From Pseudodesulfovibrio thermohalotolerans (GTDB lineage: Bacteria > Desulfobacterota > Desulfovibrionia > Desulfovibrionales > Desulfovibrionaceae), in the NCBI RefSeq assembly GCF_021353295.2, contig NZ_CP120635.1:2869501-2933500 (forward strand): a DNA stretch of 64,000 nt. The letters are read 5' to 3'. Under the pieces are notes generated by a model, which was given only the letters and a program-made list of their open reading frames with translations, was not told the origin of the DNA and made no database searches. Shown piece after piece: positions 2,504 through 39,726 of this stretch (position 1 is its first letter; the number at the start of each line of letters is the position of its first letter). The position numbers and the translations under genes were made by a program.

Positions 2504-2535
2504 TTACTTACCGGAAGGCATGGCGAGGTGTCGGA
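2504..2535 (-). promoter_or_regulatory. Phage promoter-like element, copy A
   Basis: Minus-strand layout TCCGAC-N14-TCCGGTAAGTAA, seen on the plus strand as TTACTTACCGGA (2504-2515), 14 bases, then GTCGGA (2530-2535). It starts 4 bp after the stop of the tail protein X gene and ends 30 bp before the gpD start. The same 12-mer and exact spacing recur at six other gene boundaries. Confidence 0.7.
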
Positions 2536-2539
2536 CGCT

Positions 2540-2830
2540 TCAGTCGAGCAGGCGCATCTGGACGTGTTCGCGGGAGGGAATGCGCAGCGCCAGACCCGGC
2601 TCGAGCGCCAACGGGAAAAAGAGGTCGTTGTAGTCGCAGATGATCCACCAGAGCCTGGCGTCACCCAGATAGCGGTGCGCCAGCAGATCCAGGCGGTCGC
2701 CCTCGACCACGGTGTGTAGGCGGTCGTCGTGTCTGGGAGTAGCGTCGATGCGCTGGCGCATGCCGAGGGAAATGCCGTCGCTGTCCCGGTAGAGAAGGCA
2801 GCGGGCGTATCGGGAATCACGGCTGATCAT
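2540..2830 (-). CDS. LysM-like tail protein (phage tail protein X type)
   Basis: This 96-residue protein shows the compact LysM/gpX pattern: HTVVEGDRLDLLAHRYLGD (residues 39-57), then RLWWIICDYNDLFFPLALEPG, then LRIPS. Such proteins bind at the tail hub or tube-baseplate junction. The ATG overlaps the stop of the CIS-tube-like gene (ATGA overlap), so the two are translationally coupled. It is the last gene before element A, and its TGA stop (2540-2542) is immediately followed by the element. Confidence 0.75.
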   Translation of the reverse strand: MISRDSRYARCLLYRDSDGISLGMRQRIDATPRHDDRLHTVVEGDRLDLLAHRYLGDARLWWIICDYNDLFFPLALEPGLALRIPSREHVQMRLLD

Positions 2831-3297
2831 GAGCGCACCTCCGACCAGTTGATGGAGCGGTCCACATATTCCTCGAGGACGATGTCCACCTCGGCGCGTT
2901 GCGGCAGCAGGTTGTCCCGGTCGAACAGGCCGAAGAAACGCGCCTTCACCTGCCGGACGATGCAGGTCACGCCAGGGTAGAGATCGCCGAAAATGAGCAG
3001 CACACGGTGCGGCGCGTTCTTGAGCATGGTTCCGGCGTGTTCCGGATATTGCAGCGAGCGGAGCCAGTCGACCTTCTGTTTGACCGGCCCCTTGAACAGC
3101 TCGACTTTGAAGGCGATCCGGCGCGGTTCCCCGGCGACGTACTGGTAGCGCGGGTGGCTCATGCCGGGGATCTTGATCGTCGCGTAGTCGGTCGACTTCT
3201 CGTCGCTGATGGAGTTGGGGTTGTACTGGAATTCGAGCCGCTCCCCCGTGTCGGCGTCCACCAGATATCCCTTGATGGGCTGTTGATCCCAGGCCAT
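2827..3297 (-). CDS. Contractile-injection tube-initiator / XkdP-like tail protein
   Basis: The 156-residue product contains the N-terminal signature of contractile-system tube adaptor proteins: GYLVDADTGERLEFQYNPN (residues 10-28), then ISDEKSTDYATIKIPGMSHP, then RIAFKVELFKG. In phages and injection systems this domain connects the inner tube to the baseplate hub. It lacks the usual C-terminal LysM, which is encoded separately by the next gene, so the two together correspond to a longer fused protein in other phages. Confidence 0.75.
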   Translation of the reverse strand: MAWDQQPIKGYLVDADTGERLEFQYNPNSISDEKSTDYATIKIPGMSHPRYQYVAGEPRRIAFKVELFKGPVKQKVDWLRSLQYPEHAGTMLKNAPHRVLLIFGDLYPGVTCIVRQVKARFFGLFDRDNLLPQRAEVDIVLEEYVDRSINWSEVRS

Positions 3298-3300
3298 TCC

Positions 3301-3612
3301 TTACACCTCGGCGATCTCGAGGATCGGCTTGCCCAGTTGTCCGGCCCGGTCGAGTTCCCGCCGCATGCCGCTGGAAATGCCGTTGCCGGTGAACGCCCAC
3401 ACCTCGTCGCAACATTCCATGTAGGCCAGGCCGCAGGAGATGCCAGTCTCCCGCTGCTCGGGAACGCTGTCATCGGTAAAGGTTGGATACAACAGGTGCG
3501 GCGCGAACGGCGCGTGACCGTTTCTCATGACCCGTCGGCAAAGCGCCTCGGCGACCTTCACGTTTCGGGCTATGTCACCCGCGAACGGGCTGCAGACAAA
3601 GATGCGTTTCAT
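3301..3612 (-). CDS. DUF4406-like / nucleoside 2-deoxyribosyltransferase-like protein
   Basis: Starting at the internal ATG 3612 (with GAGAGGA just upstream) gives 103 residues beginning MKRIFVCSPFAGD. The Rossmann-like fold pattern RIFVCSPF...N...A, then APHLLYPTF, then CDEVWAFTGNGISSGM with a final PILEI strand is that of DUF4406 and related 2-deoxyribosyltransferase-like proteins. The substrate is unknown; relatives act on nucleosides or nucleotides. Its place between tape measure and tube genes suggests a cargo gene rather than a tail part. The ORF can extend to 3624, which would overlap the tape-measure stop. Confidence 0.65.
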   Translation of the reverse strand: MKRIFVCSPFAGDIARNVKVAEALCRRVMRNGHAPFAPHLLYPTFTDDSVPEQRETGISCGLAYMECCDEVWAFTGNGISSGMRRELDRAGQLGKPILEIAEV

Positions 3613-3620
3613 CGGTCCTC

Positions 3621-6600
3621 TCAAAGTGTTTCGTAGTTTCTGATCTTCCGCTCCCGAAGATCCTTGTAGACGGCCTCGGCCACCTTCCGGCCATCGATGT
3701 TGGTGGTCACGCTCAGTTCCACCGGTCGGTCGGCCAGGCCATCGAGGCGCGAGAGCAGCGATTCCAGCAGTTCGCGCAGCCCCGGACCGGCTTCCTCTCC
3801 GCGCTGGGGTGTCGCTGGAGCGGTGCGGGGCGGAGTAATCAACCGTTCGGAAGGCACCGTCTCGGCGAGTCCGGATTGCAGGGGCTTCGCTATCAGAGTC
3901 GGCGCGGCCGTCTTGGGCCGTTCAATCCCGGCCGGAGCCAGAGAAGCACTTCCGATTTCCGGTGCCGGTTCCACCGCAAACGGCTGGATGTAGCTCTTAC
4001 TTACCGGCTCGACGGCCGCCGCGACGGTCTGCACGGTGCCGTTCATCGATTGTGGGGGTGGTGCGGCCGTGGCCATGACTGGCTGGAGCATCAGCATGGC
4101 GCTCAGGGCCTTGGGCACCAGGCGTTCGTCCAGACGCGGAACGAGACTGAGCACTCTTTCGATGATGCGTTGCCCAATCGATTCGGCGGGCTGCGCGGTC
4201 TTGAGCGGTTGCTTCTGCTCGGCCACCTGCGGGACCGGTACTTGGACTCCCAGCATGGCGCGAGCGGAGGAGAGCAAACCGTTGGCGATCCCGGCGCTGC
4301 GATCCTTGATCGCCTGAATGCCCGCGCTCGCGCCGCTGGAAAGCCTTTGCCAGAGGGATTGCCCCTCGGTACCGGCACTGGCAAAGATTCGGCCCACAGC
4401 CCCGGGGACGGCAGACAGAGTGGCAACGATCCGGTCGCGGAGATTGACGGCTCCCGTGGCCAGCGCATCCCAGGCATTGACCTGGGGCGGTTTGAGCGCC
4501 AGTACGGGCGTGTCGCCAAACAGGGATTGCTTGAGACCGCCGAATATGGCACCGGCCTTGGCCGCGACGGTTTGAGCCCCGGAGGTCAACCCATCCCAGA
4601 GTTTTCCAGCCATCCGGAAAGGAGCCGAGGCGGCGTCCATGAGGTTTCCGCCCGCCGTCTTGATCTGCTGCCAGGCTCCCGCAGCGGCCGAGAGAATCCC
4701 GCGAGCGGCGAAGCCGAACACTTTTGCGGGCAGCGACTGGGTAAGGCTCATGCCGTCGGCGAGAGTCTTGAGCAGCGCGGAACCGGAGGCGGTCAGGCTG
4801 GCGAGTGGTCCCTCGCGGGCATCGGAGAACGGCAGCAGATTGCGCAGCTTGCCCAGGGCGTTCTTGAGCATGGTGAAGGGATAGGTCACCGCCGACCAGA
4901 TCCCTTCGCCCAGGGCGATCAGCAGCTTTTTGCCCGCCTCGAAGAAGGTGGTGTCCCCGGCGAAGAAGGAGCGCACGGTGGCAAACAGCTCACGCAGTGT
5001 GCTGATGATCGGCAGATTCAGAATCGCCTGGCGGATCTGTCCGGCGGCGTCGGCCACCAGGCGTCCGAAGGAGGTGAAGATGCCGGAAATGAAATCCCAG
5101 ACACCGACCACCACATCCCGCGCCCAGCGGAACGGGGTGGCAAGAAAATCGTAGACCGCGCCGCCAATGGCCTTGAGACCATCCAGCAGGGAGATGTCAC
5201 CGGTCAGCACCTGCCAGACGGAATAGACGATCTTCCCGGCGGCCATGAAGGCCTCGCCGATCATGCGCACGGGCAACAGGAACTTGTAGATGAACTTGGC
5301 CGCTCCGACCAGGGACCCGACGATGGCCTTGCCGACCCAGACCACGCTGCGCACCACCACCGCCAGGGCTCGGACGATGAGCGACAGGTTCCAGGCCACG
5401 ATCTTCAGCGCGAATGCCAGCCCCTGCAGAAGCACACCGGCGACGGTGCCGATAACCGTGCCGAAGGTGCGCCAGGACGAGCCGTCGGTGGCGCTGGCGG
5501 CCACGCCGAAGATCTCCACCACCGAAAAGACTGCGCTGGCCAGCGCCGCATAGGCACTCATCAGGGTGCGGACGGTGGGTTCGAGGATGGCGCGGATGCG
5601 GCCAAAGGCATGGGAGAACGCGCCCCACAATCCGGCCATGGCCTCACGAACGCGGTAATAGGCCTTGAAGACGGTGACCACGAAGCCCAACAGCCCGGCG
5701 GATTCTAGCTTCTGGGCCAGTTCGGCCGACATCTGCCCGACGCCGCCGCTGAGAGAACCCACCAGCTCTCTGATCCCCTGGAAGACCACCGAGACCTTGT
5801 TCCAGGACCCGGTGATGATCTCCTGAATGCCGCCGAAGTTGGTTTCCCAGGCGCGTTTGAGCAGATACACCGACAAGATCACGCCCGCGATGATCGCGGT
5901 GACGGGCAAGAAATAGGTCGCAACCGCCGAACCCACCCCGGCGAGCGCGGCGCTGATAGCCACGAACCCGGCCTTGATGGCTGGAAGCATGAGTCCCACC
6001 ATGCCCACGGCGGCGGTGACGGCTCCGACCACGACCAGAATGGTGCCGAGGGCCATGGATAATCCAAGGACAACCCGGGTCACGCCCGGCATCGATTTGG
6101 CCATGCGTTGCAGGAACAGAATGAGGCGGGAGACGCCGTTGATCATCGGGGTGACCACCGGTAGCAGAGTGCGACCCAGGATTTCGCTGAGGTTGGCCAC
6201 CTGCTGGCGCAGGAGCAGGAATCGGGCTCCGATGTCCTGGTTCATGGCGTCGGCCATCTGTTCGGTGACCGCCGTGCCGGTCTTCATGGCTCGGCCCACC
6301 GACTGGATATTGCCTTCGAGGCTCTCCATGCCCGCCGACATCTGCAGCAGGAACTTGACCGCCTCGTCGGAGCCGAAGGCCTTCTTCAGCTTCACCTGGG
6401 CGGCGGCGTTGGAGAGATCGGGAAACTGGCGCTTGATCTCCTGCAGGATGGGAACCACGCCCTTGAGACGGCCGCTGGTGTCGGTGAAGGACAGGCCAAG
6501 CTCGTCACCGGCCTCGGCCGCCTTCATGATGAACGCCTTGTACAGCGTGCCAGCCTCTGAGCCGGGCATGGTGGTCTGGAGCTGGCCGAGCACGGCGAGC

Positions 6601-7256
6601 TGCTCGTTCAGCGGAATATTGCTCGCCGCCGCCACCGCGCCGATGTTCTTGATGGCGTCGGCCATCTGGGTGCCGTTGGTCTTGAACGAGGCCACGGTCT
6701 GCGCCATGGCTCCGGAAAAGGCGGTCGCCCATTCCATGTCGTTCATGTCGGCCATGATGGGCTTGAAGATCCCGTAGGCCGTGGTGAAGGTGCCGACCAT
6801 CTCCTGGGTGGTGGCCTTGGTCGCCTTGGCGGTCATGGCGGCCATGGATGTGAAGATGCCCACCGCCTCGTCGCTGAGGTTGGACAGGGCCGATTTCACA
6901 TCGTAGGTGGCGGTGATGAAGGCGGCCTTGTCGGCACCGGACCATTGGTTAGTGAAGGATTCGGCGGCGTCCTCGATGGCCCGGAGGTCCTGCACGCCGA
7001 GGGACGCCAGCTCGCCCAGGGCTTTCTGGGTCGCGGCGGTGGAGGCGACCAGGGCGGCGGGTACCGCTATCAGGGCCAGTCCAGCCCCCAGCATCATGGT
7101 CCCTTGCTGGATGCGGTCCAGGTTGCGGGTCATCCGCTCGCTGGCATCCGCCACGGTGGAATCGAGGTCCATCATGGAACCACGGATGCGCTGCGCGTTC
7201 TGCGAGAACGCATCCTTCATCGATACCACTATGCCCAGTCCGAGATCGCCGTTCAT
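3621..7256 (-). CDS. Tail tape measure protein (TP901 type)
   Basis: The 1,211-residue length suits a scaffold that sets the length of a contractile tail. The first 330 residues match the TP901 core domain (TQKALGELASLGVQDLRAI, then KAAFITATYDVKSALSNLSD, and a later GSEAGTLYKAFI). Long hydrophobic segments follow (about residues 390-470 and 600-720, for example LGLSMALGTILVVVGAVTAA), then Ala-rich helical regions and a Pro-rich tail. The C-terminus ends with a short beta/alpha segment (ELSVTTNIDGRKVAEAVYK) typical of such proteins. It lies directly after the frameshifted chaperone ORF, the standard position. Confidence 0.9.
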   Translation of the reverse strand: MNGDLGLGIVVSMKDAFSQNAQRIRGSMMDLDSTVADASERMTRNLDRIQQGTMMLGAGLALIAVPAALVASTAATQKALGELASLGVQDLRAIEDAAESFTNQWSGADKAAFITATYDVKSALSNLSDEAVGIFTSMAAMTAKATKATTQEMVGTFTTAYGIFKPIMADMNDMEWATAFSGAMAQTVASFKTNGTQMADAIKNIGAVAAASNIPLNEQLAVLGQLQTTMPGSEAGTLYKAFIMKAAEAGDELGLSFTDTSGRLKGVVPILQEIKRQFPDLSNAAAQVKLKKAFGSDEAVKFLLQMSAGMESLEGNIQSVGRAMKTGTAVTEQMADAMNQDIGARFLLLRQQVANLSEILGRTLLPVVTPMINGVSRLILFLQRMAKSMPGVTRVVLGLSMALGTILVVVGAVTAAVGMVGLMLPAIKAGFVAISAALAGVGSAVATYFLPVTAIIAGVILSVYLLKRAWETNFGGIQEIITGSWNKVSVVFQGIRELVGSLSGGVGQMSAELAQKLESAGLLGFVVTVFKAYYRVREAMAGLWGAFSHAFGRIRAILEPTVRTLMSAYAALASAVFSVVEIFGVAASATDGSSWRTFGTVIGTVAGVLLQGLAFALKIVAWNLSLIVRALAVVVRSVVWVGKAIVGSLVGAAKFIYKFLLPVRMIGEAFMAAGKIVYSVWQVLTGDISLLDGLKAIGGAVYDFLATPFRWARDVVVGVWDFISGIFTSFGRLVADAAGQIRQAILNLPIISTLRELFATVRSFFAGDTTFFEAGKKLLIALGEGIWSAVTYPFTMLKNALGKLRNLLPFSDAREGPLASLTASGSALLKTLADGMSLTQSLPAKVFGFAARGILSAAAGAWQQIKTAGGNLMDAASAPFRMAGKLWDGLTSGAQTVAAKAGAIFGGLKQSLFGDTPVLALKPPQVNAWDALATGAVNLRDRIVATLSAVPGAVGRIFASAGTEGQSLWQRLSSGASAGIQAIKDRSAGIANGLLSSARAMLGVQVPVPQVAEQKQPLKTAQPAESIGQRIIERVLSLVPRLDERLVPKALSAMLMLQPVMATAAPPPQSMNGTVQTVAAAVEPVSKSYIQPFAVEPAPEIGSASLAPAGIERPKTAAPTLIAKPLQSGLAETVPSERLITPPRTAPATPQRGEEAGPGLRELLESLLSRLDGLADRPVELSVTTNIDGRKVAEAVYKDLRERKIRNYETL
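3997..4028 (-). promoter_or_regulatory. Intragenic near-match to the phage promoter-like element
   Basis: TTACTTACCGGC (3997-4008) followed after 14 bases by GACGGT (4023-4028) reproduces the spacing of the seven intergenic elements, with one mismatch in the 12-mer and two in the outer hexamer. It is inside the tape-measure coding sequence, so coding constraint or chance may explain it. If active it would start a transcript toward the tail-end genes. Confidence 0.3.
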
Positions 7257-8077: not shown

Positions 8078-8092
8078 GGTCGATCCTCCGGT

Positions 8093-10944: not shown

Positions 10945-10976
10945 TTACTTACCGGAAGCGCTGGGGATGTGTCGGA
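10945..10976 (-). promoter_or_regulatory. Phage promoter-like element, copy B
   Basis: TTACTTACCGGA (10945-10956), 14 bases, GTCGGA (10971-10976) on the plus strand, which is TCCGAC-N14-TCCGGTAAGTAA on the minus strand. It starts 3 bp after the stop of the upstream gene and lies 24 bp before the TTG start of the first tail gene. The short leader constrains where transcription could begin if GGTAAGTAA is a -10-like box. Confidence 0.7.
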
Positions 10977-16298: not shown

Positions 16299-16351
16299 CG
16301 TCTCCGGTCAGTTTGCTGTGCTCTCCGCGACCTGCGGGGAGCGTTCAGCGG

Positions 16352-16383
16352 TTACTTACCGGAAGCGTCGGCGATGTGTCGGA
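16352..16383 (-). promoter_or_regulatory. Phage promoter-like element, copy C
   Basis: TTACTTACCGGA (16352-16363), 14 bases, GTCGGA (16378-16383) on the plus strand. It lies 53 bp upstream of the methylase-protease-scaffold start on the minus strand. It sits back to back with the + strand promoter of the restriction-modification cassette, so it would restart phage head transcription after that insertion. Confidence 0.7.
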
Positions 16384-16448
16384 GGGTGACGGCGAATTTC
16401 AGCGGACGGGACTTGGGGGGAAATTTATGGAAGTTGCCGAGATTTGGC

Positions 16449-16477
16449 TTGAAAATCGGCCTGGTATTCGTTATTTT
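16449..16477 (+). promoter_or_regulatory. Sigma70-type promoter of the restriction-modification cassette
   Basis: TTGAAA (16449-16454), a 17-base spacer and TATTTT (16472-16477) lie about 45 bp upstream of the HTH gene. The region is more AT-rich than the phage genes around it, matching an acquired cassette with host-type expression in the lysogen. Confidence 0.5.
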
Positions 16478-16522
16478 CTATTATCATGTTTTATTACAGA
16501 ATTCAGAAAAGCGGTGACTGAC

Positions 16523-16735
16523 ATGGAACCACAAGACAAATGGCTGACCATCGAGGAGCTTTCCGGTTATCTGAAGATGAGCCGCAGCAAGCTCTACCAG
16601 ATGGCCCAGAAAGGCGAGCTGCCCGGTTCCAAGATCGGAACCCAGTGGCGGTTCGACCGGGACCGGATCGATGCGTGGATGAACGAAAAAATGAGCGCAC
16701 CAAGCAAACGAAAAACGGGGGCTCAACATGCCTGA
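16523..16735 (+). CDS. Excisionase-type helix-turn-helix protein of the RM cassette
   Basis: From ATG 16523 the 70-residue product reads DKWLTIEELSGYLKMSRSKL and then GSKIGTQWRFDRDRIDAWM, the MerR/Xis-like HTH_17 domain. It overlaps the methyltransferase start by 8 bp, so it is co-translated with it and may act as a controller or DNA-binding accessory protein. The ORF is open further upstream to 16313, but those residues look unlike a protein. The ribosome site is weak. Confidence 0.75.
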   Translation: MEPQDKWLTIEELSGYLKMSRSKLYQMAQKGELPGSKIGTQWRFDRDRIDAWMNEKMSAPSKRKTGAQHA

Positions 16736-18266
16736 AGCTTTATTGAAAGAACCTCTAAATCTTCTGTCTCGGGCGGATGCTTCGAGGAAAATTGCAAACG
16801 GCAAGCTCAAGGTGGAAACCAAAAGTGCTTTTGGCCAGTATATGACCCCGGCCACGGTTGCCTCGTTTATGGCTTCGTTGTTTCCCGCCCCATCAAGTCA
16901 GAATATCCGGCTGTTGGACCCCGGAGCAGGTGTCGGCAGTCTGACATCCGCTTTTGTCGAACATCTCTGCAAAGGTAAAAACGGCTATCGTATTGATTTG
17001 GACGCCTACGAAATAGACTCGGTAATGCGTTCCTATCTGGAGAAGAATCTTGATCTGTGCGAAATAACCGCAGCGAAAAGCGGTGGTTCGGTGGCGTGGC
17101 GCATTATTGCTGAGGACTTCATAACCGAAGCATCAAAGAAGGCGGCTTCGCTTAATAGCCTGTGGCCTGAAAAGGTGGATAAGTACACGCACTGCATTAT
17201 GAATCCTCCCTATAAAAAGATTTCCAGCGCATCACGCCACCGGGCATGTCTTCGCACCGCCGGAATTGAAACGGTTAACCTGTATTCAGCTTTCGTTGCC
17301 TTGTCCTTGCTGTTACTGGAAAAAGGCGGATATCTGGTTGCAATCATTCCCAGGAGTTTTTGCAATGGACCGTACTATCGTCCATTCCGGGAGTTCATGC
17401 TGAAACATGCCGCTGTGCGGCGCATTCATCTGTTTGGCTCCAGAAACAAGGCGTTTAGGGAAGATAAGGTTCTTCAGGAAAATATCATCGTGGCGCTTGA
17501 AAAAGGTGGTCTGCAAAAAGGTGTCACTGTCTCGACTTCCACCGACGATACATTCTCCGACACATTCATTTCCGATTATCAATTCAGAGAAATTGTCCGC
17601 GAGGATGACAAAGAACTTTTTATTCATATCCCGGCGACACCGGAAGCTGATTTTCTGGACGATGCGAAAGCATTTAACTACTCGCTTTCGCAACTTGGCA
17701 TACAGGTTTCAACCGGTCCGGTTGTGGATTTTCGCATGAAGGATCACTTGAAAGCCATGCCTGAAGCCGGAACAGTGCCGTTGTTGTACCCATGTCATTT
17801 CAAGGGACAGTCCATGCAATGGCCGATAGTAGGAGGGAAAAAGCCCAATGCGATTCTGTGCAATAAGGAAACGCAAAAATGGCTTTATCCGAATGGCTTT
17901 TATACTGTGGTGCGCCGTTTTTCATCAAAAGAAGAAAGGCGGAGAATTGTGGCGAGCGTTGTTGCCCCTGCGGTGTTTGGTGGAGTGGAGAAGCTTGGCT
18001 TGGAAAATCACCTCAATGTTTTCCATAGCAATAAAGGGCCGCTAACAGAGGCCCTTGCAAGAGGGCTTTCCGTCTTTCTGAATTCAACGGCTGTTGATGA
18101 CAACTTCCGGCGGTTCAGCGGCCACACACAAGTCAATGCAACCGATCTTAAACTTATGAAGTACCCGAGCCGCAAGGCCCTCATTGAACTCGGACAATGG
18201 GCAATCAAGCAAGGGGAGTTGACTCAGGATATGATCGACGAAGAAATGGAGAGAATTGCGGAATGA
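16728..18266 (+). CDS. Type II N6-adenine DNA methyltransferase (M.PstI/M.BsuBI-like)
   Basis: The 512-residue protein has a FGQYMTPATVASFMASLF N-terminal segment, SAM-binding motif I LLDPGAGVGS (62-71), acidic motif II (LDAYEID) and catalytic motif IV NPPY (159-162), followed by a target-recognition half. The layout is that of gamma-class adenine methyltransferases paired with PstI/BsuBI endonucleases. Methylation protects host and prophage DNA from the partner nuclease. The stop overlaps the endonuclease ATG. Base composition is visibly more AT-rich than the flanking head genes, a sign of separate acquisition. Confidence 0.9.
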   Translation: MPEALLKEPLNLLSRADASRKIANGKLKVETKSAFGQYMTPATVASFMASLFPAPSSQNIRLLDPGAGVGSLTSAFVEHLCKGKNGYRIDLDAYEIDSVMRSYLEKNLDLCEITAAKSGGSVAWRIIAEDFITEASKKAASLNSLWPEKVDKYTHCIMNPPYKKISSASRHRACLRTAGIETVNLYSAFVALSLLLLEKGGYLVAIIPRSFCNGPYYRPFREFMLKHAAVRRIHLFGSRNKAFREDKVLQENIIVALEKGGLQKGVTVSTSTDDTFSDTFISDYQFREIVREDDKELFIHIPATPEADFLDDAKAFNYSLSQLGIQVSTGPVVDFRMKDHLKAMPEAGTVPLLYPCHFKGQSMQWPIVGGKKPNAILCNKETQKWLYPNGFYTVVRRFSSKEERRRIVASVVAPAVFGGVEKLGLENHLNVFHSNKGPLTEALARGLSVFLNSTAVDDNFRRFSGHTQVNATDLKLMKYPSRKALIELGQWAIKQGELTQDMIDEEMERIAE

Positions 18267-19219
18267 ACCAGACCAACAACCATAAGCAAATCAGTGACGC
18301 GATCAATATCCTGGTAGCTCTTGGAATGCCGAGGGCGCAGCAGAACGAACGTTCCGCGCTCTGTCTTCTTGCCTTGTTGAATCTCACACCCGGCAAGAAG
18401 TGGAAGGAGTCTGAAAAACCGTTGATGGGGATAACGCCCATCATGGATTGGGCGCGTGAGCACTATCAAAAAGAGTACGCCCCAAATACTCGGGAAACCG
18501 TCAGGCGGCAAACCATGCATCAGTTCGTGGATGCAGGAATCGCACTCTACAATCCAGACAAACCCAACCGGCCTGTAAACAGCCCCAAGGCCGTTTACCA
18601 GATCGAAGATACCGTTCTGGAGTTGCTACGTTCCTTCGGTACTTCGATGTGGCATGACAACCTGACGTCCTACCTTGCCGACCGCGAAACCCTTGCGGCG
18701 CGTTACGCAATGGAACGGGAGCAAAATCGGGTTCCCGTGAAAATCGCCAAGGGCAAGGAGATCACCCTGAGTCCCGGCGAGCACAGCGAATTGATACGAG
18801 ACATTATTGAGGAGTTCGGGCCTCGATTCGTTCCCGGCGGCGTGCTGATCTATGCTGGCGATACCGGTGACAAATGGGGATATTTCGATGCGCCTTTGCT
18901 CTCCGATCTTGGCATCAGTGTCGATTCTCACGGGAAAATGCCCGATGTCGTTCTGTTCTGTCCGAAAAGAAACTGGCTGTTACTCGTTGAATCCGTTACC
19001 AGTCACGGCCCTGTGGACGGCAAAAGACATGCGGAACTGTCACAGCTTTTCGCCAATTCCAAAGCGGGGCTTGTCTATGTCACCGCCTTTCCAAACCGTT
19101 CTCTCATGGGGCGGTATCTTGGAGAAATCGCCTGGGAAACGGAAGTATGGGTGGCTGACGCCCCTTCCCATCTGATTCATTTCAACGGAGAGCGATTCCT
19201 CGGACCTTACAAGGACTGA
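18263..19219 (+). CDS. Type II restriction endonuclease, BsuBI/PstI family
   Basis: ATG 18263 overlaps the methyltransferase stop (ATGA) and gives 318 residues, about the length of BsuBI/PstI enzymes. The N-terminal half is the helical DNA-binding part (ETVRRQTMHQFVDAGIALYN). The C-terminal half holds the nuclease pattern GGVLIYAGDTGDKWGYFD, then KMPDVVLFCPKRNWLLLVES, where the PD and E/xS strand form a PD-(D/E)XK-like core. The product cleaves unmethylated DNA; CTGCAG would be the family default, but specificity cannot be read from sequence. The cassette opposes the phage late transcripts. Confidence 0.9.
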   Translation: MNQTNNHKQISDAINILVALGMPRAQQNERSALCLLALLNLTPGKKWKESEKPLMGITPIMDWAREHYQKEYAPNTRETVRRQTMHQFVDAGIALYNPDKPNRPVNSPKAVYQIEDTVLELLRSFGTSMWHDNLTSYLADRETLAARYAMEREQNRVPVKIAKGKEITLSPGEHSELIRDIIEEFGPRFVPGGVLIYAGDTGDKWGYFDAPLLSDLGISVDSHGKMPDVVLFCPKRNWLLLVESVTSHGPVDGKRHAELSQLFANSKAGLVYVTAFPNRSLMGRYLGEIAWETEVWVADAPSHLIHFNGERFLGPYKD

Positions 19220-22418: not shown

Positions 22419-22450
22419 TTACTTACCGGAGCGGGGTGGAAAGCGTCGGA
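22419..22450 (-). promoter_or_regulatory. Phage promoter-like element, copy D
   Basis: TTACTTACCGGA (22419-22430), 14 bases, GTCGGA (22445-22450) on the plus strand. It lies between the terminase stop (22459) and the portal start, 74 bp from the GTG chosen here and 35 bp from the earliest in-frame start. Confidence 0.7.
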
Positions 22451-24896: not shown

Positions 24897-25271
24897 ATGA
24901 CCGAATGCACCGTGCATCAAGCCGCCGAGGCTTTCATCGGCCACCTGCGGGAATCCGGAAAGAAAGAGCGGACCCTTTACACCTACCGGAAGGACCTCGA
25001 TGTAGTGGAGGTCTTCTTTGGGGCGGATCGCCAGCTCACCGAGATCCGGCTTCCCCAGGTCGGCAAGTTCTACAAGTCGGATCTGCTGCTCAAACTCCCC
25101 GACGGCAAGGAGCGGGCTGAACGCACCGTCGCCAAGACCGTCCGGGTGTTCCGCATGATGATGGTATGGGCCAGGGAATCGGGGCGCATCGAGGAGCTGC
25201 CGCTGCCCAAGAGCACACCCATGGGTCACAGCAGGGTGAAGGAGTCCAGCGATGAGCAACCGAACGGCTGA
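24897..25271 (+). CDS. Stand-alone tyrosine-recombinase core-binding (SAM-like) domain protein
   Basis: The 124-residue protein matches only the N-terminal arm/core-binding half of tyrosine integrases: AAEAFIGHLRESGKKERTLY, then YRKDLDVVEVFFG, and a final VRVFRMMMVWARESGRIEEL. No catalytic Arg-His-Arg-Tyr half follows, so it cannot cut DNA alone. It overlaps the full recombinase gene by 20 bp. It probably binds recombination sites as a helper, or regulates the neighbour. Confidence 0.7.
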   Translation: MTECTVHQAAEAFIGHLRESGKKERTLYTYRKDLDVVEVFFGADRQLTEIRLPQVGKFYKSDLLLKLPDGKERAERTVAKTVRVFRMMMVWARESGRIEELPLPKSTPMGHSRVKESSDEQPNG

Positions 25272-26166
25272 CCTCGACCTGACGGGCGCGACAGAGGCGT
25301 TCTGTGCCCGCCTGTCGGCCGAAGGACGCTCCCCGGCGACCATAGCCGCATACCGCCGGGACCTTGCCCTGGTGGCCCGCGTTGCCGATGAGCTGGCCCC
25401 GGGCATCATCTGCCGGGCGATCACGGCCGGGCTCCTCGACCGGGCGTTCTCCGCCGGGGCGGTCACCGAGAGCGGGCGCGGCCCACGCTCGGCGGCCTCG
25501 CTCCATCGGATGAAGGCGGCGGTGCGGGCCTTTTTCGCCTGGGCCTCCGAGGCTGGCGTGGTCGATGACAATCCGGCCCGGTCCATCCGCATGCATCGGC
25601 TGCCGAGAAAGCTGCCGGTGTTCCTGACCACCGCCGAAAAGAAACGACTGCTCAAGGAACTCAAGGGACGGACCGACTTCTCCGCTCTGCGCGACCGCGC
25701 CATGATCGAGGTGCTGCTGGGCACCGGGATCAGGCTTGGCGAGCTGGCCGCGCTCGACATGGATGACATCGACCTCGACGCCAAACATCTGCGGGTGCGG
25801 GCCAAGGGGAATGTACCGCAGGTCAAGTTCATCAAGACCGACCTCCGCACATTGCTGCGCCGTTACCTGGCCGAGCGCCGCCGACATGGCCGTCCGGAAA
25901 TGGAAGCCCTGTTCCTGTCGAACCGGGACGGCAGACTCTGCCAGCGGCAGATTGCCAACCGGCTCGCCCACTGGCTGCGGAAGGCCGGGATCGAAAAGGA
26001 ACTGACGCCGCACGGGCTGCGGCATACCTTCGCCACCCACCTCTACGGCGCGACCAATGACCTGCTCGTGGTGCAGCGGGCCTTGGGGCATCGGGACGTG
26101 TCCACCACCCAGATCTACACCCACCTCGTGGACGGCCAGCTCGAGGAAGCCCTCGAACGCCTCTGA
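25252..26166 (+). CDS. Tyrosine site-specific recombinase (XerC/D-like)
   Basis: The 304-residue protein is a complete tyrosine recombinase: core-binding domain (ATIAAYRRDLALVARV, residues 29-44), then catalytic Arg161 (GTGIRLGEL), Lys185 (AKGN), His254-x-x-Arg257 (HGLRHTFATHL), His280 (LGHRDVSTTQ) and nucleophile Tyr289 (IYTHL). It is unlikely to be the prophage integrase because it sits between terS and terL genes and a serine recombinase closes the phage. About 200 bp downstream is an array of imperfect palindromes, half-sites facing across a 7-base gap, that could be its substrate. Confidence 0.88.
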   Translation: MSNRTADLDLTGATEAFCARLSAEGRSPATIAAYRRDLALVARVADELAPGIICRAITAGLLDRAFSAGAVTESGRGPRSAASLHRMKAAVRAFFAWASEAGVVDDNPARSIRMHRLPRKLPVFLTTAEKKRLLKELKGRTDFSALRDRAMIEVLLGTGIRLGELAALDMDDIDLDAKHLRVRAKGNVPQVKFIKTDLRTLLRRYLAERRRHGRPEMEALFLSNRDGRLCQRQIANRLAHWLRKAGIEKELTPHGLRHTFATHLYGATNDLLVVQRALGHRDVSTTQIYTHLVDGQLEEALERL

Positions 26167-27358: not shown

Positions 27359-27390
27359 TTACTTACCGGAAGCGGCGCTCAACTGTCGGT
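27359..27390 (-). promoter_or_regulatory. Phage promoter-like element, copy E (overlaps upstream gene's 3' end)
   Basis: TTACTTACCGGA (27359-27370), 14 bases, GTCGGT (27385-27390) on the plus strand. Unlike the other six intergenic copies it lies within a coding sequence: the terminal TAA of GGTAAGTAA is the stop codon of the Mor-like regulator gene. It is 91 bp upstream of the GTG of the terS-like gene. Confidence 0.65.
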
Positions 27391-28411: not shown

Positions 28412-28930
28412 GGCTTCAGGCTCCAGAAATACGGGTTAATCGCTTTTCCCGTTACTTACCGGAGCCCATGGCCAGGTGACGGAGGACCGACGCTTTCGTT
28501 TGTAATCGTTTTTTTAGCGAGAGGCCGTTTTGTAACTGTTTTTTGAGGTCTCTAAACGTTTTTCCAGAAACCGGCTGATCTGCGGTGGATATGTGCGGTG
28601 GCTGCGGTGGTCGTGCGGTGGAAGGTTTTCTCGTCCCACCGCAGGGGGGTGCGCGTTGTTTGTTTATTGTTTTTCGATAGTTATGAAGATAGAGAAGATA
28701 GAGTGCGGTGGTTGCGGTGGTATTTGGGGAATGTCTCTCACGCTGGGCCGGAATTTATCTTGTGGGAGCCGACGAATCGGTGAGTCGAAAAATATTTCAG
28801 CCCATAGGGGGTGACACCTCTGGATTTACCACCGCATCCACCGCAAAGGGCATGAAAGCCTTGTCTGGCAAGGGTTTGGCGTGCGGTGGTCATCCACCGC
28901 AAGGGACAGCGGTGTTCACCGCACCACCGC
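28318..28930. repeat. GCGGTGG cluster, iteron-like, possible replication origin
   Basis: Fourteen exact GCGGTGG heptamers lie here. Nine are on the plus strand, with first bases at 28318, 28327, 28582, 28595, 28604, 28615, 28705, 28714 and 28883. Five are on the minus strand, with plus-strand starts at 28636, 28829, 28838, 28894 and 28924. Near matches occur at 28909 and 28916. Four pairs are 9 bp apart. No believable gene occupies 28,484-28,986, and the short ORFs there are products of the repeat. The layout resembles iterons bound by phage primase-helicase or initiator proteins. Confidence 0.65.
28452..28483 (-). promoter_or_regulatory. Phage promoter-like element, copy F
   Basis: TTACTTACCGGA (28452-28463), 14 bases, GACGGA (28478-28483) on the plus strand. 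It ends 40 bp before the ATG of the 256-residue protein gene, at the edge of the GCGGTGG cluster. The outer hexamer differs at one position from the consensus. Confidence 0.7.
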
Positions 28931-28986: not shown

Positions 28987-29583
28987 TCAGACCTGGAGAA
29001 TGTTTTCGACCAGCTTGTAAACCGTGGTGCCGCCAAGGGCGCGTGGCCAGTCGGCGCAGGGCGGATTGTCGCGCAGTCTGGCGCGGCGGATGGCTTCATC
29101 GATCCGGTCGCGGGTGATCTTGCGTGCGTCGATCCCCTTGTCGTAACCGGGAAGGTGCCGCTTCAGCCGGTCGCCGCAATCCCGTGACGATGCGATGCCG
29201 GTGCCATCCTCGAAGTGGAGCAGCAGCCAGTATTCGAACTTGGGATTGCTCAGGGCGAAGCCGTAATTGTCGCGTGCCTGAGCCCAGGCATGAAGCTGGT
29301 CCAACTGTTCGTCGGTCCACTGATCCTTGTCCACCACGATCCAGGCCTCGTCGGAGGATCTCAGCTCCTCCTGGCGGAGATGATCTTCCATCCGCTTCAG
29401 TACCTGCGGCGGGGAGCTATCGTGGCTGCCTTTGAGACAGTTCACCCGGATCACCGATTGCTGGTCATTGAAGATGGCGAAATACTGCGGCTCGGTCTTA
29501 ACGCCTTCCACCGCGATCACGAACAGCTTGCGGTAGCGACGCTCGCCGAGGGGTCTCTGGAATCTGCGTCTCTTCGGCGGCAT
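28987..29583 (-). CDS. RloB-like TOPRIM protein (AbiLii-type)
   Basis: The 198-residue protein has a basic start (PPKRRRFQRPLGERRYRK), then the TOPRIM-like strand LFVIAVEGVKTEPQYF with a conserved Glu, a WIVVDKDQW Asp-x-Asp motif, and NPKFEYWLLLHFED, all hallmarks of the RloB family. RloB partners with an ABC-type ATPase (RloA) in restriction-linked loci and in the AbiL abortive-infection system. The start codon touches the RloA stop, so the two form one operon. The proposed role is prophage-encoded defence against other phages; the activity of the TOPRIM-like part is inferred. Confidence 0.82.
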   Translation of the reverse strand: MPPKRRRFQRPLGERRYRKLFVIAVEGVKTEPQYFAIFNDQQSVIRVNCLKGSHDSSPPQVLKRMEDHLRQEELRSSDEAWIVVDKDQWTDEQLDQLHAWAQARDNYGFALSNPKFEYWLLLHFEDGTGIASSRDCGDRLKRHLPGYDKGIDARKITRDRIDEAIRRARLRDNPPCADWPRALGGTTVYKLVENILQV

Positions 29584-30929
29584 CAGTCATCCCCCTCACT
29601 TTCTTCGGTGAGGCAGGGATTGGTCAAAGCGCCTCCCAAGAGAATCCGGGGAATTCCACCCAGTCGTCCCTGCAGGTAGCTCTTACGGATATCCTTGTCG
29701 TATCGGACATCCTTGTACTCGCTGAAGGAGAGCAGGTTCGAAGCTCCGGTGGCATCTCTTTCGGCGACCCACATCTCGTCACGGCGCAGGAGTTGCTGAT
29801 CCATGAGCAGCACGTCATGGGTGGTCAGCAGCAACTGCGTTCTGGTTTCCGTGGAGCAGTTGGCCAGGTACGCTTCGAGCAATCTGCGTGTCAGCAGCGT
29901 GTGCAGGCTGCGGTCGACCTCGTCGATCACGTAGACCTTCTTCGAGACCTGGGCCGAGAGCTCAAGAAACGCGGGCAGCAGATCGATCACCCGCTGCGAG
30001 CCGTCCGACTCCTGACGGATCTCGAACTTGGCTTCCGTGCCATCCGCTTTCGGATGATAGGTCACCAGCTTCTTGGCGATCAGCTCGCCACCTTTGCGGG
30101 TCACCACGAACCGTTCGTTGATCGGCTCGGTCAGCAGACGAACGGTCATGCCTTCCTTCACGTCTTCCTGCAGCTTGGTCTTCAGCGGCTCGGGCAATGG
30201 AATATTCTCGAACGGAATCTCCTCGCCACCGAGGTGCGCGATGCCGGTGTCGAGCTGCGGCAGCATCTCGTTCATGGTGGAGTAAAGCGGATGCCCCTCG
30301 TCGAGGAATTGCTCGAAAGGTTCGAAGCGGGAATCGGGCGCGACCAGCTCGAGCGTGTCCTTGAACCAGTCGTAGACCGGCCGGAAATTGTCGACCTTCT
30401 GGGAGACCGAGTTGGTCAGGAAGAGTTGGTTGTCCCGGGTGCCCTTGAAAGCGAACTGGAGGAACTGGTCCTTGGCCAGGGACTCATCGAAGTTGGGCTC
30501 TCCGTCCCGACGGTGGTAGAGCACCTTTTCGCTGGTACTGGTGATGGCCACCAGCTTCTCTTCCAAAATCGCCTTGCGGGTCACCGCGAAGCTGAACTCG
30601 TAAATGATCTCGTCGATCAGTAGCTCGAAGCCAAACCGTGACGGCTGGTCGGCCACCTTGGCGTCCAGCCGGAACGGCTCGACAGGAATCAGGCTGTCGG
30701 GCTGGGTGCCTTTGACGACCAGCGCCTTGGCGAAACTCAGGGCCTTGAAAAAGTTGGTCTTGCCCGACGCGTTGCCACCATAAATTGCCGCAACCGGAAG
30801 AACTCTCGTCTGGTACTTGCCGAGCTTGGGAACCCTGTCTCCATGCTGGCGCTCCCTGCTGGCGACCATCGAAAATGTGACCTGGTTGCGGAAGGACATC
30901 CAGTTTTCGAGTGAGAAACTGACTATCAT
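29583..30929 (-). CDS. RloA-like AAA/ABC-type ATPase (AbiLi-type)
   Basis: The 448-residue protein begins [20 protein letters not shown], the typical AAA_15/AAA_21 opening, with Walker [12 protein letters not shown] near residue 53, and ends with Walker [16 protein letters not shown] and the TTHDVLLMD switch. It is an SMC/RecF-like ATPase that would sense infection and control the RloB effector. It has a strong TAGGAGG ribosome site and its own sigma70-type promoter, independent of the phage element, which fits expression in the lysogen. Confidence 0.85.
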
Positions 30930-36559: not shown

Positions 36560-36993
36560 CTCGCGATCCTCCGGTGAAAACGTGTCAGGTACTCCTCGAC
36601 AAAACGGCAGGCGGCCTGCCGGTCCGAGCAGAAGTAGACGGGGACACCGAAGTCGACGACGATGGAGGCGACCGTTCCGATCAGCGCATGCGGGTGGGCA
36701 TCGCTGCGGTAGCGGCCATCGACCAGATCGCGAAAGTTGCATTCGACAACCACGCAGGCGGATTCGTAAGCTGAGAGCTTTTCCAACTCGCGGTGAAACC
36801 GCTTTCGCCCCCGGATGACGGTGGAGACGAAATCCGTCAGGGATTTACGCTCCACCGCCACCCGTTCCTCGAGGCCGACCAGTGAGTAATCACCGGCGGG
36901 CAGCGCCTTGCGAACCGCCGAAACCTTGTCGCTATCGAAGCTGTAGGGCTCCTGTTCGCGGGTGTCGACGACAACGGTGATCCGGTCCATCAT
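36511..36993 (-). CDS. ERCC4-type nuclease
   Basis: The 160-residue protein has the ERCC4/XPF nuclease core: VVVDTREQEPY at the start, LPAGDYSLVGLEERVAVERK with the ERK motif, then FHRELEKLSAYESACVVVE. It should cut branched or flap DNA with a divalent metal. It overlaps the RecD2-like start by 49 bp and starts at the stop of the DUF669 gene, so the three act in one recombination/repair operon. Confidence 0.88.
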   Translation of the reverse strand: MMDRITVVVDTREQEPYSFDSDKVSAVRKALPAGDYSLVGLEERVAVERKSLTDFVSTVIRGRKRFHRELEKLSAYESACVVVECNFRDLVDGRYRSDAHPHALIGTVASIVVDFGVPVYFCSDRQAACRFVEEYLTRFHRRIARCQKEMRVTRRDSGEE

Positions 36994-37466
36994 CAGAACG
37001 GCATCATGTCGTCCATCGCCGCGCCGGGAGCCCCGGCATCGTCGGCCATGACAATGCGACGGTTGAAGTAGATGTTCTCGTTTTCACCGCGAGTGCGCTT
37101 GGTCACCTCCAGCTTGATGTTGAGAAGCTGCTCGAGGTGGCCCGGCAGGTCGGAGAGCTTCTGAAGCTGCAGCCCGCAGGTGTAGAGGTCCTGCTTGAGC
37201 CACTTGATGTTCTCGTTGCTGGCCATGACGTTGTTGCGCCAGAGCAGACGGCCCTTGAGGGTCGGCGCGAGAATGCGCAGGGTCCACTTGAGCATGGGAT
37301 TGCCCGAGGTCTGGGCGCGAGTCAGTTCGACCCGGTCAACGTTGACCTGATACTTGCCGTCGGGAACGGCTTCGAACTCACGCTCCTCGACTTCGGCGGT
37401 TTCGAAGGCGTCGTCGAACTGCGCCAGGTCGAGGTTGCTGTTGGATTGGTTTTCGTAGTGTTCCAT
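36993..37466 (-). CDS. DUF669 protein, ssDNA-binding-like
   Basis: The 157-residue protein matches DUF669: an acidic N-terminus, EAVPDGKYQVNVDRVELTRA, then GNPMLKWTLRILAPTLKGR, then IKLEVTKRTRGENENIYFN. It ends with the acidic, hydrophobic-tipped tail MDDMMPF, like the partner-binding tail of single-strand binding proteins. It is placed next to a Sak4-like ATPase in many phages, consistent with an annealing/recombination partner. Confidence 0.8.
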   Translation of the reverse strand: MEHYENQSNSNLDLAQFDDAFETAEVEEREFEAVPDGKYQVNVDRVELTRAQTSGNPMLKWTLRILAPTLKGRLLWRNNVMASNENIKWLKQDLYTCGLQLQKLSDLPGHLEQLLNIKLEVTKRTRGENENIYFNRRIVMADDAGAPGAAMDDMMPF

Positions 37467-37478
37467 GGTCGGATCTCC

Positions 37479-38249
37479 TTACTGTTGGGGTTTCGCCGCC
37501 GCACTCGCGGTCGGCTCCGGCTTCGGCCGGGCGGCACTCGCCGCAGCTCCGGCTGCCGTGTTGTTGAACGCTTTCATGAAGCTCGGAAAATCGAGGGGGA
37601 TGATTTCGGGGAGTCGGCCGGTGCGGTCACCGGCGTCGTAATTGGGACTGGGTTTGGTGCGCATCACGCGCTGCCAGACCGGCTTGCCGTCTTCGCCGGT
37701 TTTCATGTCCAGGTCGCAGAACAGGATCAGGTCCACCAGACCGGTGACCAGCTTCCGCGCCTTCTCCGGTAGCGTCGGCACGATGCGGGTGTGTTTGCCG
37801 GTCCGGGTCTCGATGTCCCGCTCCTGGGAGTGGGAGATCAGGATCAGCCCATAGGGCAGGAAGGCGAGCTTGTTGATGACGCGCTGGAACTCGTTGTTGA
37901 TCAGCGCGTAGCCCTTGCCGTAGCCCAGGTCGGATTCGTGCTCGATCTTGAATTTCTTGCAGACGTAGTCCGAGCACATCTTGTAGGCGTTATCCACCGT
38001 GTCGACGACAATGGTCTTGAACTCGTGCTTGCCCTCGGCGATTTCGGCGCAGGCCTGCAGAAGGTCGTCCCAGCAGGTGATCGGGGTCTGGAACACCTCC
38101 AGGGCGTTCAGGCCCGGCTCGGTCGCGAGGAACAGTGCGTCATCGGCCTTGGAGCACCAGGTGCTCTTGCCGATCTTGCTCGGGCCGTACACCAGGGCGG
38201 TGAGGTCCGAGAGCGTGTGTTTGGGTTTGCTTTTGGTCTTGGGAAGCAT
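37479..38249 (-). CDS. Sak4-like RecA-fold ATPase
   Basis: The 256-residue protein has Walker A LVYGPSKIGKST (19-30), Walker B FKTIVVDTVDN and a RecA-fold core (ALFLATEPGLNALEV, then GLILISHSQER), the Sak4 / phage AAA_24 pattern. It probably promotes single-strand annealing or strand exchange together with the DUF669 protein. The Ala/Pro-rich C-terminus looks disordered. Confidence 0.85.
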   Translation of the reverse strand: MLPKTKSKPKHTLSDLTALVYGPSKIGKSTWCSKADDALFLATEPGLNALEVFQTPITCWDDLLQACAEIAEGKHEFKTIVVDTVDNAYKMCSDYVCKKFKIEHESDLGYGKGYALINNEFQRVINKLAFLPYGLILISHSQERDIETRTGKHTRIVPTLPEKARKLVTGLVDLILFCDLDMKTGEDGKPVWQRVMRTKPSPNYDAGDRTGRLPEIIPLDFPSFMKAFNNTAAGAAASAARPKPEPTASAAAKPQQ

Positions 38250-38275
38250 GGCTTCGTCTCCTTATGGTTGGGATT

Positions 38276-39292
38276 TCAAAACACCGGAGCGGCGTCTTCA
38301 CCGGCTCCGTCCCGCAGCTCTTCGTGCGGGGCGATCCGTTGGAAATGGTTTTCGATGACGTTGGGGTTGCCGCCCGAGCGGCAGAGCTGGAAGTAGGCGC
38401 AGGGCCTTCCGTACTGGAAGCAGTAGCTGGTGTTGCGGTAGAAGGTGTCGCGCCGACGGGCGTCGAGCATGGCCTTGGAGAGTTCCCACAGCTCCGCCCG
38501 CAGCTCCTCGAACTGGTCGCGGGAGATGTAGAGCACCTCGCGATGGAACATGCCCGGCTCGAGGTACTTCTCCTGGAGCCGTTGCTGGAAGGTGTCGTCG
38601 TCCTCCGGAAGCTTGCGCTTGGCGCTGCTCTTGCCGGTTTTCGACTTGGCGATCAGCTCCGCCCGGCGGGCCTCGAATCCGGCTTCGGTTTCACCCTTGC
38701 CCTGGCGCAGCTTGGCCTTGACCAGGACGTTGTAGATGATGCCGCTGACCGTGATGCCGAGGGTCTGCTCCAGGTACCAGGCGTAGAGGATGATCTGGAA
38801 ATCGGTCCACAGCCGCTCCAGGTAGCTGGCGTCGATCTGCGAGGCGGTTTTATGTTCCAGCAGGAAATACTGGCCATCCTGAAGGACGATGCCGTCCACC
38901 TTCCCGGCGAGAATGAAACTGCGCGAGGTCGCCCCGGTCGCCGGGTTGACGATGGGACCTTCGAAGGTTTTCTCGAGCGCGACGACCTCGAACGCTTCGG
39001 CCGGGTAGTGTTTCGCATAGGCGCTCATCATGGCCCGGGCGAGATGCCAGTCGGCCTGTTGATGGTCGTCCTGCGCCCGGTTCGGATAGGTCCGGTCGAT
39101 GTGGTCGAGGACCTTGGCCAGATCCCGCTCGCCGTGCCAGCACTCCAGGCAGTCGTGAATGACCGAGCCGAAGGCCAGATTGGGATCGCGCTCGAGTGGC
39201 ACCAGCTCGTCGATGTAGCGCCACTTGCAGGCCATGCGGCAGTTGCGGAACAGCCGCCACATGGAATAGGTGGTGGTCATCAGCTCGCTCAT
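38276..39292 (-). CDS. PD-(D/E)XK exonuclease (RecB/Cas4-like)
   Basis: ATG 39292 overlaps the stop of the upstream gene. The 338-residue product has FGSVIHDCLECWH (motif I His), GKVDGIVLQDGQYFLLEHKT with the D...ExK active site, and a Gln/Tyr motif (DFQIILYAWYLEQ). An N-terminal CRMACKWRY and a C-terminal CFQYGRPCAYFQLC supply Cys residues that could hold an iron-sulfur cluster as in Cas4/AddB. It likely resects phage DNA ends for the annealing proteins. Confidence 0.85.
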   Translation of the reverse strand: MSELMTTTYSMWRLFRNCRMACKWRYIDELVPLERDPNLAFGSVIHDCLECWHGERDLAKVLDHIDRTYPNRAQDDHQQADWHLARAMMSAYAKHYPAEAFEVVALEKTFEGPIVNPATGATSRSFILAGKVDGIVLQDGQYFLLEHKTASQIDASYLERLWTDFQIILYAWYLEQTLGITVSGIIYNVLVKAKLRQGKGETEAGFEARRAELIAKSKTGKSSAKRKLPEDDDTFQQRLQEKYLEPGMFHREVLYISRDQFEELRAELWELSKAMLDARRRDTFYRNTSYCFQYGRPCAYFQLCRSGGNPNVIENHFQRIAPHEELRDGAGEDAAPVF

Positions 39293-39624
39293 ACCGCCAC
39301 CCCCGCTTCGGCGGCGGGCGCTGCCCGATGCTTGGAGGCACAGGCGCAACCCGACGGCTGGGATCGTTCGATCAGGACCGAGCGTTCGCCGTACTCCTTG
39401 GTGGCGAAGCCGGTGAAGATGCGGGCGAGGTCGCTGCCGACATCGGTGGAGGCGTCGATCACGCAGGTGCGTCGGGCCGTGTCCAGATTGAACCGGCTCT
39501 CCATCCGCACACGGGAGCGGCCATGCAGGCTTTCGACGGCCAGCATCGCCAGCATGAAAGTGTCTTCCAGTTCCTGGGCCGGGACCGACTCGTCAAAACG
39601 GTACTTGTAGGTGTCGTGAGTCAT
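39289..39624 (-). CDS. Small phage protein at the head of the replication unit
   Basis: The 111-residue protein from ATG 39624 (AAAGAGGAG upstream) reads DTYKYRFDESVPAQELEDTF, then a central ESLHGRSRVRMESRFNLD and a Cys-containing C-terminus (GCACASKHRAAP). I know no function. It is the first gene behind element G and overlaps the exonuclease start, so it is transcribed with the recombination genes. Confidence 0.6.
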   Translation of the reverse strand: MTHDTYKYRFDESVPAQELEDTFMLAMLAVESLHGRSRVRMESRFNLDTARRTCVIDASTDVGSDLARIFTGFATKEYGERSVLIERSQPSGCACASKHRAAPAAEAGVAV

Positions 39625-39694
39625 GGTTGAACTCCTCTTTTGTTCAGGTTCTGATTTCCGAGGCCCCGGATAGCCGCACCATGCGGCACGGTGC

Positions 39695-39726
39695 TTACTT
39701 ACCGGAGGCGGAGCCGATGCGTCGGA
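39695..39726 (-). promoter_or_regulatory. Phage promoter-like element, copy G
   Basis: TTACTTACCGGA (39695-39706), 14 bases, GTCGGA (39721-39726) on the plus strand. It starts 2 bp after the stop of the sigma-like gene and lies 70 bp before the first replication-unit gene. It would give the sigma-like factor control of the replication and recombination operon directly downstream. Confidence 0.72.

Follow-up and report, generated by a model that had tools for sequence, protein, structure and literature searches.

A phage-encoded ECF-type sigma factor as the likely reader of a probable promoter family that divides a Pseudodesulfovibrio thermohalotolerans prophage into transcription units

The 64-kb window of Pseudodesulfovibrio thermohalotolerans DNA analyzed here (NZ_CP120635.1, 2,869,501-2,933,500; element coordinates count from the window start) includes a prophage, named A, with a gene for a phage sigma factor of the extracytoplasmic function (ECF) type, P0001, and a set of short elements in which the 12-mer TCCGGTAAGTAA is preceded at a distance of 14 bp by a second block. 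A preliminary description of this DNA had reported seven copies and proposed that they form a phage-private promoter family that splits the prophage into transcription units. On sequence evidence this is supported as the best reading, and it is refined in that the reader would be a phage sigma factor, the family extends with the sigma gene beyond this phage across many phyla, and a divergent copy faces the integrase genes. The elements very probably are promoters for host RNA polymerase carrying P0001. A pattern scan of the window recovered the seven copies, all on one strand and with the 12-mer unchanged. The window has 10 matches to the 12-mer at up to two mismatches, a number that none of 100 dinucleotide shuffles reached (mean 1.5, maximum 5). 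The second block, first seen as a GTCGGA-like hexamer on the opposite strand, reads TCCGAC in five of the seven copies, with the variants ACCGAC at 27359 and TCCGTC at 28452.

All seven copies are on the minus strand and, as had been described, the 12-mer lies 24 to 91 bp before a gene start. Site 1 (39695-39726, TCCGAC-N14-TCCGGTAAGTAA) starts 2 bp past the stop codon of the P0001 gene (39729-40313, minus strand) and 70 bp from the next start, the ATG at 39624. It opens the replication/recombination unit, which consists of a short gene followed by genes for an exonuclease, a Sak4-like annealing protein, SSB, an ERCC4 nuclease, a helicase, a primase and an AAA/RloB pair. Site 2 (28452-28483, TCCGTC variant) is located 40 bp before a gene for a 256-amino acid protein of unknown function, which is followed by the helix-turn-helix (HTH) gene P0002, and site 3 (27359-27390, ACCGAC variant) 91 bp before a TerS-like gene (a weak match), with TerL further on. 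Portal and head morphogenesis genes start 74 bp after site 4 (22419-22450). Site 5 (16352-16383) is 56 bp before a methyltransferase/prohead-protease-like gene, coding for a D12 methyltransferase with a weak prohead-protease match under the cut-off, and the major capsid and neck genes. Site 6 (10945-10976) precedes by 24 bp a 182-amino acid gene and the sheath, tube and tape measure genes, and site 7 (2504-2535, TCCGAC-N14-TCCGGTAAGTAA) lies 30 bp before the start of 1190-2473 in a unit that includes a tail protein, an endolysin and further genes. The units as originally listed agree with the PHROG and Pfam family matches. The placement at gene boundaries needs one correction: the copy at 27359 is not intergenic, since the gene before it ends in this copy, with TCC GGT AAG as its last codons and TAA as its stop.

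Two copies can be added to these seven, one on the plus strand at 44270-44301 and one on the minus strand 4471 bp to the left of the window, which precedes baseplate wedge and tail genes. Prophage A has nine copies in all (seven minus-strand copies in the window, one outside, and the plus-strand copy). The genome, a single contig of 3,887,578 bp, includes 13 exact copies of the 12-mer, all on the minus strand and all within prophage A or a related prophage, B (G000:C1, 1898-1955 kb). Prophage A has all the window copies and the minus-strand copy 4471 bp leftward, and prophage B has five exact copies and three variants. The two prophages also account for all 18 matches to the two-block pattern with one mismatch allowed, and in related prophage regions the same genes are found behind the sites. 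Commonness outside the prophage and absence before the same genes in relatives, the two findings that had been named as speaking against the proposal and could be looked for here, were thus not observed. A one-mismatch match at 3997-4008 (minus strand) was left out because its position within the tape-measure gene makes coding sequence the probable explanation. It consists of GCCGGTAAGTAA with CCGTC at the correct spacing and is retained in relatives, which may reflect coding constraint or an internal promoter.

P0001, which had been missed in the preliminary description, is the likely reader of the sites. This 194-amino acid protein matches phrog_1740 (2e-25), and was also assigned by NCBIfam and Foldseek. 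The Pfam matches to sigma regions r2 (residues 16-73) and r4_2 (residues 135-180) are both just under the cut-offs (22.8 vs 24 and 22.8 vs 25.7, respectively), and no Pfam match was found to regions r1 and r3, so that P0001 has the sigma2 plus sigma4 composition, without sigma3 or sigma1.1, that characterizes ECF sigma factors. The 42.9-bit cut-off of TIGR02937 (sigma70-ECF) is passed by P0001 (56.4) and the sigma factor of prophage B (45.6) and is not reached by the C-type (23.9) or Wolbachia phage WO (37.9) sigma factors described below. The predicted structure is helical, with a linker of low confidence, and its top Foldseek matches, i.e. the nearest solved structures, are ECF sigma factors. 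A scan of the window found no site upstream of the sigma gene itself.

The occurrence of the sites follows that of the sigma gene. Of 36 genomes in the genus, 4 have the gene, and these four alone exceed two site matches when one mismatch is allowed. Among 288 genomes of the family, 13 have a sigma match below E 1e-40; four more match at 6e-5 to 1e-3 inside long frames, which are probably other sigma factors or proteins. It is these 13 genomes, and none of the other 275, that have at least three occurrences of the pattern CCGWC-N15-CCGGTAnGTAW; five of the latter (G030, G081, G094, G236 and G240) have one or two. Fisher's test for sigma gene versus at least three sites gives 9e-23, a value that is uncorrected for the relatedness of the prophages and therefore overstates their independence. 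Prophage B is 96% identical to A over 36 kb of late genes, and its replication and early part has diverged. Its sigma factor, 50% identical to P0001, precedes a TCCGGTAGGTAT site; the diverged part includes three TCCGGTAGGTAA/T sites, one of them just behind the sigma gene, and five A-type sites are present besides. To express its late genes prophage B would need its sigma factor to read A-type sites, an indication of compatibility or of a recent swap. Sigma factors about 45% identical to P0001, named C-type (G070, G040, G066 and G068), are followed by CCGAC-N14-sCCGGTAYGTAT, with equal spacing and the first copy directly after the sigma stop codon. The C-type motif was read from the sequence behind the sigma gene, a k-mer search having been swamped by an array in G070 (L048-L050) that resembles clustered regularly interspaced short palindromic repeats, with about 200 repeats of a 61-bp period, near the C-type prophage.

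The C-type regions bear on the question of whether the sites could instead be operators at which P0002 (27359-27637, minus strand), a 92-amino acid HTH protein, acts like Mor or a late activator together with host sigma70. P0002 shows a weak late-activator match (phrog_836, 2.6e-5; Pfam Mor, 0.044), its gene is located between two sites, and a homologue is found in B and in six of the seven A-type regions, the seventh being a 9.6-kb fragment. A Mor/C-type system would have the activator gene wherever the site occurs, and the four C-type regions have sites of the same geometry and no P0002 match (tblastn, 1e-5; two regions are contig fragments, and other activators were not searched). Moreover, two sites lie upstream of P0002 itself, and sigma-end sites occur across many phyla, in loci where P0002 was not looked for. 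P0002 was set aside as the reader because of the C-type regions, and we give this explanation only a slim chance.

The same relatives define the geometry of the element, which had been described as two TCCG cores on two helical turns. This part of the description is not upheld; the meaningful arrangement is that of a -35/-10 promoter, CCGAC, 15 bp, CCGGTAnGTA, since the second core varies in relatives (CCGGTA, CGGGTA, CCGTGTA) while the spacing is constant, within 1 bp in WO. Two blocks at a fixed spacing upstream of genes are what a sigma-dependent promoter would present. The placement at gene boundaries, the one stop-codon overlap and the uniform orientation on one strand could also be expected of processing, termination or packaging/partition signals without promoter activity. 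The element, however, shows no dyad symmetry or T-run by inspection, the divergent copy faces divergent genes, and the two blocks with their fixed 15-bp spacing, adjoining a sigma gene, fit -35 and -10 sequences, so that we regard such signals as still less probable than operators of P0002.

Beyond the family, relatives of P0001 were taken as the best 80 of 98 from a genome collection and the best 80 of 101 from a virus collection. Cut or short matches led to the removal of five of the 80 genome loci (L086, L116, L121, L131 and L136), and none of the 80 viral loci was removed. In the sequence within 210 bp of the sigma gene end, 64 of these 155 loci match all 14 fixed positions of the element and 109 match at least 12. 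Random windows drawn from these loci match 12 or more in 50 of 3100 cases, a number that includes some true copies. A matrix refined on 103 distinct sites places a CCGAC-N15-CCGGTAnGTA site at the end of the sigma gene for 147 of the 163 loci, which include relatives down to about 30% identity; the controls gave 5 of 728 for windows in other places and 0 of 161 for the opposite strand. The site is present in 71 of the 75 genome loci (four lack it), for which 12 phyla are named; many loci are contigs of metagenome-assembled genomes (MAGs), and single host assignments may therefore be wrong. A reading of the sites by an alternative sigma factor of the host or by a single-subunit polymerase, with P0001 as a hitch-hiking neighbor, draws on the fact that binding of P0001 to the sites is a prediction. 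Against it, the host genome has matches only inside the two prophages, site presence tracks the phage sigma gene through many phyla, and no polymerase family was found when 50 of the prophage proteins were compared to PHROGs. This is the least probable of the alternatives considered.

Among 50,697 phage records only seven match P0001 at E 0.01, all of them Wolbachia phage WO, with 25-27% identity. Behind the WO sigma gene lies GGACGAATT-N10-YCGTRYATATA, and when the gap may be 8-11 each of the two scanned records yields three copies of this pattern, compared to 0 for the reversed controls. In both records one copy is divergent from the sigma gene, toward the terminase or tail side. The variant is AT-rich, and the distance between GAC and CCG is 18 behind the sigma gene, as in prophage A, and 17 in the four other copies. 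A search of the viral contig collection with the WO pattern gave 0 matches, and the two WO records were scanned directly instead. The main text of Kent et al. 2011 (PMC3173496), in the portion available, mentions a sigma-70 gene of WO and does not include the word promoter, and the accessible portion of a Wolbachia 5'-end study (PMC12558409) reports only sigma70-like motifs and no evidence of lytic entry under heat stress.

Prophage A also includes a putative switch that could place P0001 under repressor control. A predicted early promoter, TTGACC-N17-TATATT (44213-44241, minus strand), proposed solely as a sigma70-like consensus match, has in its spacer the perfect inverted repeat GACCTGATG-NN-CATCAGGTC (44220-44239), the inner 18 bases of which are found in four of eight A/B regions scanned. 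The repeat is likely the repressor operator of the lysis/lysogeny switch. The first gene behind this promoter codes for a LexA-type winged-helix protein (43923-44156, minus strand; Pfam LexA_DNA_bind, 5e-13). In the scheme that we propose, this host sigma70 promoter with its built-in operator, at about 44.2 kb, would drive the early genes, with the sigma gene as the last gene of the same transcript. Once repression is lifted P0001 would accumulate and bind the sites, and transcription would start at the eight minus-strand promoters (seven in the window and one outside) to express the replication, terminase, head, tail, lysis and baseplate genes at this later time, and at the divergent copy to express the integrase genes, probably for excision. 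A 700-amino acid QueC-like protein is encoded among the early genes, before the sigma gene (41009-43111, minus strand).

The divergent site (44270-44301, plus strand), TCCGTC-N14-TCCGGTAGGTAA, faces an 80-amino acid open reading frame (ORF), a DUF2924 gene (44731-45255, plus strand; Pfam DUF2924) and a serine integrase gene (45248-46834, plus strand; phrog_95, 1e-129; DNA invertase family, 3e-45). The ORF (44454-44696, plus strand) has GGAGG before its ATG and no match in the family libraries scanned, and it is a possible excision factor. The divergent copy is kept in most A-type relatives: in the same form in G001, G066 and G067, in a CCGAC form in G015 (two copies) and in a CTCGGTAGGTAA form in G036, G085, G250 and G253; it was not found in G007 with the patterns used. 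The T-arm-like sequence that follows this copy raised the possibility of a tRNA end at 44290, but ARAGORN gives only a tRNA-Ala at 49822, and the copy was retained as a site because of its conservation in relatives.

Pairs of sigma factor and adjacent site were compared for covariation after removal of rows more than 85% alike, which reduced 146 pairs to 79 non-redundant ones. The top corrected mutual information was that of residue 78 with base 21, in the -10 block (0.66, the next being 0.38), and the top columns for the -35 block were Y175 with bases 3 and 4 and D176 with base 0. In the model, residue 78 is near the end of helix 61-83 and residues 175-176 near the start of helix 171-187, presumably, from ECF structures, where sigma2.4 and the sigma4 recognition helix fall. 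E78 is found with C in 32 of 32 cases and R78 with G in 31 of 33. For extra copies of the site elsewhere in the loci, the strict threshold, at which 8 copies come from prophage B, gave R with G in 2 of 2 and other residues with C in 24 of 25, and the looser threshold 2 of 3 and 42 of 50, respectively; one extra copy (L124) may be the sigma-adjacent site itself. These associations are suggestive of contacts by sigma2.4 and the sigma4 recognition helix and become weak once relatedness is considered.

Several observations weigh against P0001 as reader of a widespread promoter family or against a residue code. Base 21 changes 7 times on the tree, with three independent supported pairs, of which two agree, none opposes and one shows no difference. 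In a sister-pair test the six best columns do not include residue 78 for base 21, Y175 for base 3 or D176 for base 0, residue 78 being the best column for base 22; the code is regarded as suggestive because of these few events and this test. The matrix was derived from the sites that it scores. Among the 163 loci are near-duplicates (L117 and an own-family region are one contig) and many MAG contigs. Sixteen of the 163, both WO loci included, have no site by the matrix, although inspection shows a variant in several, for example GCGTCA with GCAAAGGT. Across 79 loci there is a modest excess of extra copies over the reversed-pattern control (34 on the same strand and 23 on the opposite one vs 12), and prophage B supplies 8 of them. 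In the reverse check of 10 virus records, hand-picked among the long contigs of at least 80 site-bearing loci (at least 120 stretches), a sigma match was present in three and absent in seven. These seven have 3 to 8 copies and each breaks off within 9 kb upstream of the first site, a shorter reach than the 9.2-11.2 kb by which the sigma-adjacent site lies upstream of the next one in seven phages measured. Finally, about 700 bp separates the early genes from the sigma gene, and no sigma70-like promoter was found there, a separate promoter for the sigma gene being possible.

The first gene after site 1 (39289-39624, minus strand) codes for 111 amino acids starting MTHDTYKYRF. Comparable starts, M..E.YRYxF and then residues like VEETLLLAVLAxES, follow the sigma-adjacent site in other phages (27 of 80 loci by the strict pattern, similar in more), and the product, searched as a piece lacking its first one or two residues, has no match in the family libraries Pfam, PHROG or NCBIfam. 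The AAA ATPase and RloB-like pair that closes the replication unit (28987-30929, minus strand) is possibly a defense cassette. The array is interrupted on the opposite strand by restriction-modification genes (16313-19219, plus strand; methyltransferase and restriction endonuclease) of lower G+C content at third codon positions. The stretch from the TerS-like gene to TerL includes two neighboring ORFs (24897-26163, plus strand) that match the integrase family phrog_1 and run counter to the phage genes.

Control of late genes in the temperate phages Mu (Mor/C), P2 (Ogr) and lambda (Q) takes place through activators or antiterminators on host sigma70 promoters, with no replacement sigma factor, and temperate phages of Gram-negative bacteria are taught in terms of repressors, antiterminators and activators. 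Phage ECF sigma factors are known from the lytic phage phiEco32, in which gp36 uses promoters with the sequence tAATGTAtA, and a related one from phage 7-11, as stated in the available parts of PMC4331800 and PMC7881722. In these phages, as predicted here, the sigma factor directs the polymerase of the host to middle and late promoters that only the phage has. On the other hand, both are lytic podophages, whereas prophage A is temperate and has CCGAC-N15-CCGGTAnGTA sites, a copy that faces the integrase genes and a predicted early promoter under operator control. The gp36 protein is in the same PHROG as P0001, 1740, but direct similarity is marginal, with a BLASTP E value of 0.025 over 23 residues and an hhalign probability of 7%, and no phiEco32-like record is among the seven tblastn matches to P0001 (E up to 0.01), though phiEco32 is in the collection. 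Apart from the PHROG, gp36 and P0001 have little in common, and the present family can be considered a variant of the phage ECF sigma system.

Two other systems are related in part. SigN (ZpdN), from the Bacillus subtilis plasmid pBS32, part of which is prophage-like, is ECF-like, has its own consensus promoters and is expressed from a LexA-repressed host promoter and a self-driven one, according to the sections available of PMC6751061; its promoters are largely excluded from the pBS32 prophage region, whereas here the sites cover the phage genes and none was found before the sigma gene. The sporulation-like sigma factors of Bacillota phages, likewise phage-borne, act on host sporulation genes and are nonessential for lytic infection in the available account (PMC9429907), in contrast to sites found only in the phage. 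What sets the present family apart is a different promoter for a phage ECF sigma factor, in temperate phages and over a broad host range; the kind is known from phiEco32. A literature search, mostly of journals outside subscription, recognized no report of this sigma-site family.

If the interpretation is true, a self-encoded ECF sigma factor, an array of lytic-gene promoters and a divergent integrase copy would together constitute a different control scheme for temperate phages. The adjacency of sigma gene and site provides a natural series of sigma-promoter pairs for studies of recognition and for orthogonal gene control, and the family predicts six concrete promoter sites in two WO records. 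On balance we think it somewhat more probable than not, with less assurance than for the promoters of prophage A, that temperate phages from at least a dozen bacterial phyla, WO included, rely on a single family of phage ECF sigma factors as their master lytic switch. Each sigma factor would have its own diverged promoter beside its gene, with a readable code (residue 78 for -10 and residues 175-176 for -35), so that the lytic promoters of these phages may be read from their sequence.

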